DNA from: Brevundimonas sp. Root1279
GTDB lineage: Bacteria > Pseudomonadota > Alphaproteobacteria > Caulobacterales > Caulobacteraceae
Assembly (NCBI RefSeq): GCF_001425945.1
Contig: NZ_LMEB01000009.1
Span: forward strand, 124,001-188,000
Reading direction: 5' to 3'
Length of the DNA stretch: 64,000 nucleotides
A program made the translations under genes and the position numbers. The notes beneath the pieces were generated by a model, which was not told the DNA's origin, ran no database searches, and saw nothing but the letters and a program-made list of their open reading frames with translations. Below, piece after piece: positions 41,697 through 43,108 of this stretch (the stretch's first letter is position 1; each line of letters begins with the position of its first letter).

Positions 41697-41770
41697 TGGG
41701 GAATGGTGTAATGGTAACACTCCGGTTTTTGGTACCGTCATTCTAGGTTCGAGTCCTAGTTCCCCAGCCA
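41697..41770 (+). tRNA. tRNA-Gln (anticodon TTG); probable prophage attachment site
   Basis: 74 bases with encoded CCA. Acceptor TGGGGAA pairs with TTCCCCA. The anticodon loop TTTTGGT gives anticodon TTG, and the T-arm is GGTTCGAGTCC. Prophage genes begin right after its 3' end, as expected if the phage integrates at the tRNA 3' half and restores it. The second att copy is not in the window, so this use is inferred. Confidence 0.95.
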
Positions 41771-41806
41771 TCCGCCTCCACTGGATTTGAGCGATAGTCA
41801 TCCCCT

Positions 41807-41887: not shown

Positions 41888-42211
41888 ATGATGGAAGATC
41901 GCCTCTGGTTCCGGCCGAGCGAAGTCGCGGAGACCACGCGCATCATCGCGCGCTGCGTCCGCTGCCTCCACTCGCGGGACCTGGACCCGGCGACGCTTCC
42001 CGACGTGCCGCTGATCCAGACCGAGGCCAAGCTCCGGTGCGGATGGCGGGGCAAGGACGGCCAGCAACCTCCGTGCGGCAACCGGGCGCAGATCGAGATC
42101 ACCATCACCGCGCCAGGAATGGACGGGCGGGTCGAGCTGCCGGCTCCGCTGAAGCCCGGCGTCTTGGAGGCACGGCGCCGTTCGATGGGCGGACCTCCTC
42201 GTGCGCGATGA
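41888..42211 (+). CDS. Putative zinc-ribbon-like phage protein
   Basis: 107 residues (Met at 41891 also possible). CVRC near residue 23 and a later pair of cysteines (LRCGWRGKDGQQPPCGNRAQ) could bind zinc. It ends in a basic Arg-rich tail. It is the first prophage ORF after tRNA-Gln. No family recognised; a regulator or packaging accessory is possible. Confidence 0.6.
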   Translation: MMEDRLWFRPSEVAETTRIIARCVRCLHSRDLDPATLPDVPLIQTEAKLRCGWRGKDGQQPPCGNRAQIEITITAPGMDGRVELPAPLKPGVLEARRRSMGGPPRAR

Positions 42212-42321
42212 CCTGGCTGAGGCTGCGCATGTCGATCATCCGCGCGCAGGTCGGGCATCTGATCCAAGGGGCGGCCATGGAACCGCCAACCGGTCGCGGC
42301 GCTGATCCGTTCCGATGGGAG

Positions 42322-42381
42322 AAAGTGTGTTTCGCTACACACTTTTCCTTGCTTCCCGCCAGAGTGTGTGCAATAACACAC
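42322..42381 (+). promoter_or_regulatory. Twin inverted repeats upstream of hicA (operators)
   Basis: Site 1 is AAAGTGTGT-N6-ACACACTTT (42322-42345); site 2 is GTGTGT-N6-ACACAC (42364-42381). Both share the half-site GTGTGT with a 6-bp spacer, and their centres are 39 bp apart. Site 2 ends 3 bp before the hicA ATG. A possible promoter (TTGCTT at 42350, CAATAA at about 42371) lies between and over them. HicB carries a DNA-binding domain and normally represses its own operon, so these are its likely operators. Confidence 0.75.
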
Positions 42382-42383
42382 CC

Positions 42384-42572
42384 ATGGACAGCCGGACGAT
42401 CATTTCCCTCCTGAGGGCCGACGGATGGTTCCTCGTGAACCAGAAGGGCAGCCACCAGCAGTACAGGCACCCGACGAAACCGGGGCGGGTGACGATCGTC
42501 CACCCTCGCAAGGACTTCCCGACCGGGACCTTGAAGAGCATCGAACAACAGAGCGGCGTGAGGCTCCGGTGA
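42384..42572 (+). CDS. hicA: HicA mRNA-interferase toxin
   Basis: 62 residues, double-stranded-RNA-binding-like fold: IISLLRADGWFLVNQKGSHQQYRHPTKPG with the catalytic His in KGSHQQY, then VTIVHPRKDFPTGTLKSIEQQSG. HicA cleaves mRNA until bound by HicB. The ATG starts 3 bp after the second inverted repeat, leaving almost no leader. Confidence 0.93.
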   Translation: MDSRTIISLLRADGWFLVNQKGSHQQYRHPTKPGRVTIVHPRKDFPTGTLKSIEQQSGVRLR

Positions 42573-42610
42573 GAACCGGAGTCCAACCGCGCCAGACCAA
42601 GGAGGGTCAC

Positions 42611-43108
42611 ATGGCAACCCGAACCTACATCGCAGTGGTCGAGGAGTCGTCCCAGGGCGGCTACGGGGTCTGGTTCCCTGACCTGCCCGGCTGCGTCTCG
42701 GCCGGCGATGACCTGGACGAGGCCTGCACCAATGCGGTCGAGGCCCTGTCGCTGCACCTGGACGGGATGATCGAGGACGGCCAGGAGCCGCCGGAGGCCC
42801 GCTCAATGGATCAGGTCGACAAGGATCTCGACAAGCCCGCGGGGAGGTTCATCTATTCCGCGATCACCGCCGAGGTCGAAGACGACGGCGAGCGCGTCAA
42901 CGTCTACCTGCCGAAGTCGCTGCTCACCCAGATCAAGCGGTTCGGCGAGCGTACAGGCATCGACAACCGGTCGACGTTCTTGCGGCTGGCCGCGCGGCAA
43001 TACCTGAACTTCGAGCGCGGGGGCGAGACGGTGAAGATCAAGGCGAGCCGCACCATGTCCGGAGTGAGGGTCAAGCCGAAGGGAAAGAAGGCGGAGGCTG
43101 CGTCATGA
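42611..43108 (+). CDS. hicB: HicB antitoxin
   Basis: 165 residues from ATG at 42611 with GGAGG eight bases upstream. N-terminal RNase H-like fold (YIAVVEESSQGGYGVWFPDLPGCVSAGDDLDEA) binds HicA. The C-terminal part (VNVYLPKSLLTQIKRFGERTGIDNRSTFLRLAARQYL) is a ribbon-helix-helix DNA-binding domain suited to the operators upstream of hicA. Such pairs may stabilise the prophage or block other phages. Confidence 0.92.
   Translation: MATRTYIAVVEESSQGGYGVWFPDLPGCVSAGDDLDEACTNAVEALSLHLDGMIEDGQEPPEARSMDQVDKDLDKPAGRFIYSAITAEVEDDGERVNVYLPKSLLTQIKRFGERTGIDNRSTFLRLAARQYLNFERGGETVKIKASRTMSGVRVKPKGKKAEAAS

Follow-up and report, generated by a model that had tools for sequence, protein, structure and literature searches.

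Why should two matched inverted repeats stand directly in front of a toxin gene at the edge of a prophage? The stretch of the Brevundimonas sp. Root1279 genome analysed here (64,000 nucleotides, hereafter the window) carries such a pair upstream of a hicAB toxin–antitoxin operon, and a sequence-only reading had proposed that they are operators bound cooperatively by the antitoxin HicB, which would also cover the start region of hicA and so exert dual control over the toxin. Comparison with related operons supports the operator reading, and the other parts of the proposal have to be narrowed or given up. Features are collected in Table 1.

Table 1. Coordinates of the hicAB operon, its predicted control elements and the ends of the prophage (window coordinates).
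Feature	Position	Strand	Description
tRNA-Gln(TTG)	41697–41770	+	prophage integration site
attL	41727–41779	+	3' half of tRNA-Gln; 52 of 53 bases repeated at attR
O1, predicted upstream operator	42322–42345	.	AAAGTGTGT-TTCGCT-ACACACTTT; arms 9 bp
Putative -35	42349–42355	+	TTGCTTC, between O1 and O2; weak, 4 of 7 positions of Caulobacter RpoD TTGaCgS
O2, predicted promoter-proximal operator	42364–42381	.	GTGTGT-GCAATA-ACACAC; arms 6 bp
Putative -10	42370–42377	+	GCAATAAC, inside O2; 6 of 7 specified positions of GCtANAWC
hicA	42384–42572	+	62-aa HicA toxin (PF07927); lacks a Shine-Dalgarno sequence; GSH motif with His24
hicB Shine-Dalgarno	42600–42605	+	AGGAGG, 5 nt before the hicB ATG; read directly from the sequence
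hicB	42611–43108	+	165-aa HicB antitoxin (PF15919); solved HicB relatives 6g1n, 4p78
HicB RHH DNA-binding region	42887–43015	+	residues 93–135; RHH_1
attR	88243–88295		repeat of attL; outside the window (contig C9:212243-212295)

The operon and its paired palindromes

The operon is carried by a prophage of 46,569 bp (46.6 kb) between attL and attR, with an integrase (PF00589) adjoining attR (L107:3979-5172), and the element is listed in IMG/VR as a viral contig starting near 42212. Adjoining attL, hicAB is the first pair of genes that can be recognised within the left end of the prophage; a 107-aa open reading frame between tRNA-Gln and hicAB (41888–42211) has no Pfam match. The toxin gene comes first and the antitoxin gene second, with 38 bp from stop to start codon. 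HicA matches its family with an E value of 8.2e-20 (71.1 bits against a cut-off of 27), no second HicA gene was found in the genome, and the number of its histidine is the one cited equally for the catalytic residue of Sinorhizobium meliloti and Burkholderia pseudomallei HicA (PMC11594946). HicB matches its own family with an E value of 2e-27. Its ribbon–helix–helix (RHH) match lies just above the cut-off (E 1.3e-4), and the solved HicB proteins align across its C-terminal RHH region, which is laid out as a strand (R95-V-N97-V-Y99) followed by helices at residues 102–115 and 120–135. In the HicB model, which has a low-confidence mean pLDDT of 64.7, both helices appear and the strand does not. 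Past the RHH region lies a basic C-terminal tail (residues 136–165, 43016–43105), and the model is of low confidence from residue 138. The HicA domain and histidine, the gene order, a HicB with a partial RNase H fold and a C-terminal RHH domain, and the palindromes in the promoter region place the operon in the RHH class of type II toxin–antitoxin systems (class 4 of PMC10865869).

Read directly in the sequence, the palindromes are as they were first described: all arm pairs are perfect, half-site and spacer length are shared, the centres (42333.5 for O1 and 42372.5 for O2) lie 39 bp apart, and two bases separate the end of O2 from the hicA ATG. No other two perfect 6-bp inverted repeats in the window share arm sequence and spacer length, lie within 100 bp of each other and do not overlap; 40 dinucleotide shuffles of the window gave 0.025 such pairs on average and never more than 1. 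In the whole genome of 3,425,771 bases (3.43 Mb), exact GTGTGT-N6-ACACAC is found in two places, O1 and O2, and no site carries exactly one mismatch; with up to two mismatches allowed, the 14 forward matches are at background, the reversed control giving 12. The exact motif is therefore confined in this genome to the hicAB operon and is not scattered where hic genes are lacking, in keeping with the original proposal. The hicA frame is also open upstream through both palindromes to an ATG at 42315 (42315–42383; an 85-aa open reading frame), and a read-through message from that codon could yield an extended HicA.

The motif in related hicAB operons

There is good reason to think that O1 and O2 are autoregulatory operators of the operon's own HicB, and on the comparison of sequences this is very probably the case, because the motif stands near hicA in 42 of 76 related RHH loci, in none of the 76 at a distal control position and in none of five non-RHH loci. 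The relatives were hicAB loci from 61, 398, 390 and 385 genomes, taken as the best matches (up to 30 loci per search), and 81 had both genes after repeats were removed. Loci were called RHH where the HicB match reached residue 100 (five of these 76 proteins carry other strands), and the small control set comprises the five in which it ended at residue 84 or less. Starts of hicA in the relatives were placed automatically by alignment and some look wrong (e.g. L086 and L088). A match to the consensus 18-mer GTGTGTATNNATACACAC was counted when at least 11 of 16 positions agreed and it started within 50 nt of hicA; the distal control lay 164–200 nt upstream, and shuffles gave a mean of 2.4 of 76 with a maximum of 6. 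The 34 RHH loci that fall below the threshold near hicA include some with other half-site arrangements or misplaced starts. Exact TGTGTA/TACACA half-sites are likewise concentrated before the toxin gene, with 166 in the last 110 nt against 4 in the 120 nt at -240 to -120 (99 loci).

Among these relatives O2 stays constant and O1 varies. Pairs of half-sites are convergent in 60 cases, direct in 46 and divergent in 20; the convergent pairs are mostly 10–12 bp apart, and the divergent and direct pairs peak near 10 bp or at the O1–O2 distance. Direct half-site repeats about 10 bp apart occupy the place of O1 in L053, L055, L066, L057, L058 and L068, an arrangement which suggests that RHH units may accept half-sites in either orientation.

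Searching in the reverse direction, from motif to operon, covered 84,980 species, each represented by a single genome. The double motif in exact form, its two sites 10–40 bases apart, occurs in six genome stretches, four of which adjoin HicA and HicB genes (Breznakibacter, L109; Azorhizobium, L110; Caulobacter, L111; Psychrobacter, L113); the other two (L108 and L112) have no HicA alongside and were counted as misses. Both double-motif stretches in viral contigs adjoin hicAB, one of them being this prophage. The motif thus accompanies RHH-type hicAB across Bacteroidota, Gammaproteobacteria and Alphaproteobacteria. The Caulobacter stretch belongs to Caulobacter sp. 17J65-9 (identical to L075 over 2500 of 2500 bases), which has the closest HicB among the matches listed (46% identity). 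As in the present operon, two GTGTGT-N6-ACACAC sites, there 42 bp apart, precede an ATG that directly follows O2; it differs in a perfect TTGACA between the sites and in a longer gap between hicA and hicB.

As a marker of hicAB the single exact 18-bp motif was rejected: it is present in 7 of 200 genomes of the order (this one included) against 3 for the reversed control, and the six other loci (L040–L045) have no HicA match. The informative markers are the double motif and the degenerate consensus only. A search with HicB alone gave no confirmed related locus in genome contigs, and in viral contigs it gave this prophage only.

Biochemical support comes from S. meliloti, where HicB, and also its RHH domain alone, is reported to bind a promoter fragment (PMC6327479). 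The primers given in that study delimit exactly 221 bp in an S. meliloti record from another strain (L116), and within these 221 bp TACACA-N4-TGTGTA stands 12 bases before hicA. The fragment thus carries half-sites of the same type just before hicA, although in S. meliloti they face apart. Between conservation, the reverse search and this published binding by a relative, the proposal that O1 and O2 are HicB operators is well supported.

Probable promoter position, toxin start and competing explanations

A sigma-70 promoter scan found no promoter at the locus and none upstream. The putative -35 and -10 elements were assigned by likeness to the Caulobacter RpoD consensus, TTGaCgS and GCtANAWC (PMC8144410); they are spaced 14 nt apart, and since an equal pair arose in 181 of 1000 shuffles, the match by itself is weak. 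Relatives often carry TTGAC at the position equivalent to the putative -35, and in the 28 loci in which O2 abuts the toxin gene (starting 15–21 nt before hicA, as it does here) a TTG-type -35 is found most often 15–18 bases before the start of O2. From the -35 position in relatives it follows that the -10 would fall inside O2, and we infer in turn that transcription would begin at the start codon. O2 therefore probably lies over the -10 element.

Regulation by HicB would then proceed as follows. One dimeric RHH unit would recognise each GTGTGT/ACACAC half-site through the beta-strand residues R95, N97 and Y99, and each palindrome would hold two units roughly one helical turn from each other. 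As O2 is situated where relatives have their putative -10 element and transcription start, HicB bound there would block RNA polymerase directly, and O1, upstream of the -35, would be an auxiliary site. Excess HicA would presumably loosen HicB from the operators and lift the repression, as happens in hicAB systems that have been characterised.

The predicted transcription start, at about 42383–42385, coincides with the hicA ATG, so hicA would stand at the head of the message with little or no leader, while hicB, placed behind its strong AGGAGG, may be favoured. A Shine-Dalgarno sequence precedes hicA in 1 of the 28 abutting loci and hicB in 21, which suggests that the toxin is translated without a Shine-Dalgarno sequence and perhaps without a leader. 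Poor translation of the toxin does not follow from this, because Caulobacter is reported to translate leaderless and Shine-Dalgarno-less messages as well as others, with a Shine-Dalgarno at 24.6% of start sites (PMC4117421). As for the dual control that had been attributed to HicB over the hicA start, bound HicB can block transcription only; the placement of O2 does suggest a second layer, but one of a different nature, which would be a toxin message lacking a Shine-Dalgarno sequence.

A sharper form of the same explanation borrows the two-promoter circuit of Escherichia coli: a promoter at O2 would yield an antitoxin-only message, and HicA would be made from an unrecognised upstream promoter. 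In E. coli K-12 the HicB-repressed promoter P2 (hicO; Turnbull and Gerdes 2017, as described in PMC10865869 and PMC6957337) lies near the hicA start and is reported to give functional HicB only, so that the antitoxin is favoured, and the 27 of 28 abutting loci in which hicA lacks a Shine-Dalgarno fit such an arrangement. That HicB is, however, of the HTH type, and the second, Sxy/CRP promoter upstream in E. coli has no recognised counterpart here, where the scan found none; with leaderless translation efficient in Caulobacter, HicA may come from that one message too. The two-promoter circuit is thus possible, although the balance of these observations tips somewhat against it.

Paired palindromes under an RHH-type HicB, one of them over the -10 element, are already known from Yersinia pestis hicA3B3 (Bibi-Triki 2014, as reviewed in PMC11594946), as a HicB-repressed, antitoxin-favouring promoter near the hicA start is already known from E. 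coli. Two inverted repeats occupy the Y. pestis hicA promoter, and the downstream one, BS2, overlaps the -10 box as is predicted for O2; the repeats are 15 bp long, however, and the gap between hicA and hicB is 174 bp as opposed to the 38 bp found here. The RHH-type HicB of B. pseudomallei is likewise described as acting on a palindrome that overlaps a predicted -10, although there it is a single palindromic region and also overlaps a predicted CRP site (PMC11594946).

It had further been supposed that HicB binds the two sites cooperatively, which would mean a single HicB assembly bridging O1 and O2. The matched sites are about four helical turns apart at this locus and in several relatives (39–47 bp in 11 of 15), and HicB relatives are reported to be tetramers (PMC11594946). 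The distances in relatives nevertheless range from 27 to 47 bp without significant helical phasing (Rayleigh p about 0.08 for n = 15 and 0.24 for n = 17), O1 is missing or otherwise arranged in many loci, with 16 of the 42 loci that have a clear O2 lacking any exact half-site over the 60 nt that precede it, and Y. pestis HicB3 is reported to bind fragments with either site, BS2 being the main operator (PMC11594946). A bridging assembly is therefore unlikely, cooperativity by helical phasing was rejected for want of a conserved and phased spacing, and the claim of cooperative binding finds no support.

Far less probable again is a role for the palindromes as RNA hairpins, with O1 as a terminator or an O2 hairpin governing access to the hicA AUG. 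As RNA both palindromes fold well (-9.7 and -6.9 kcal/mol; z = -4.2 for the 76-nt stretch), T-rich sequence follows O1 and O2 lies beside the AUG, but a scan of the + strand for intrinsic terminators (a GC-rich hairpin plus a T run) found none at O1 or O2, relatives keep the half-site sequence beyond mere complementarity, their 46 direct pairs cannot form such hairpins and divergent pairs occur besides the convergent ones, a message starting at the hicA ATG would not contain O2, and Rfam matches are tRNAs only; the hairpin reading was rejected on the scan and the direct repeats despite the good folding. That some other regulator, whether a phage repressor or a host factor, uses these sites in place of HicB is just as improbable, for although the operon is prophage cargo and many repressors use palindromes, the motif follows RHH-type hicAB in different orders and phyla, occurs nowhere else in this genome, is absent from all five non-RHH loci, and is borne by DNA that S. 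meliloti HicB is reported to bind (PMC6327479).

HicB strand, half-site and the operator family

The strand of HicB and the half-site before its operon vary together. In 99 loci, among which at least two proteins are repeated (L081/L135 and L098/L138), TGTGT-type half-sites accompany R-[VIFYL]-[NQ] strands in 83 of 85 cases, xAN strands in 1 of 9 and other strands in 0 of 5, and 8 of the 9 xAN loci have TGCGC-type half-sites (Fisher p about 4e-7). As exceptions, TGCGC-type half-sites outnumber TGTGT-type ones in six of the 85 RxN loci, and the xAN locus L125 has neither type. The best tree gives five changes, but only one independent pair falls on well-supported branches, and covariation independent of descent was rejected for this reason. 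As a comparison of sequences, the link is suggestive: an association tied to descent and short of proof.

Two loci illustrate the variety. In L032, where the HicB strand is SAN, a TGCGCA-type double palindrome stands before hicA (ATTTTGCGCA-N6-TGCGCAAAAT and ATGCGCA-N6-TGCGCAT). In L072 the strand reads PTIID and the palindrome before hicA is a different one, TTACATT-GTTT-AATGTAA, possibly a different half-site code.

We tentatively suggest, as something rather short of probable, that a widespread code underlies these operons. RxN RHH HicBs would read TGTGTA half-sites about one turn apart in any orientation, and xAN HicBs would read TGCGCA; in many Alphaproteobacteria the proximal operator would form one unit with the -10 element and the start codon of the toxin, and some 20 bp would serve at once for HicB binding, for the start of transcription and for a leaderless toxin message. 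Full-text searches of the accessible literature found no paper that states such an operator code, and none that describes the cross-phylum half-site, the abutment on the start codon or the link between strand and half-site.

The arrangement of O1 and O2 is ordinary in kind, but the motif recurs before many related operons and often lies against the toxin start codon. It provides a concrete predicted operator motif by which RHH-type hicAB operons can be found and assigned. It also offers a possible answer to how toxin-first operons are biased towards the antitoxin: the operator would occupy the position in which the toxin's ribosome-binding site is expected.
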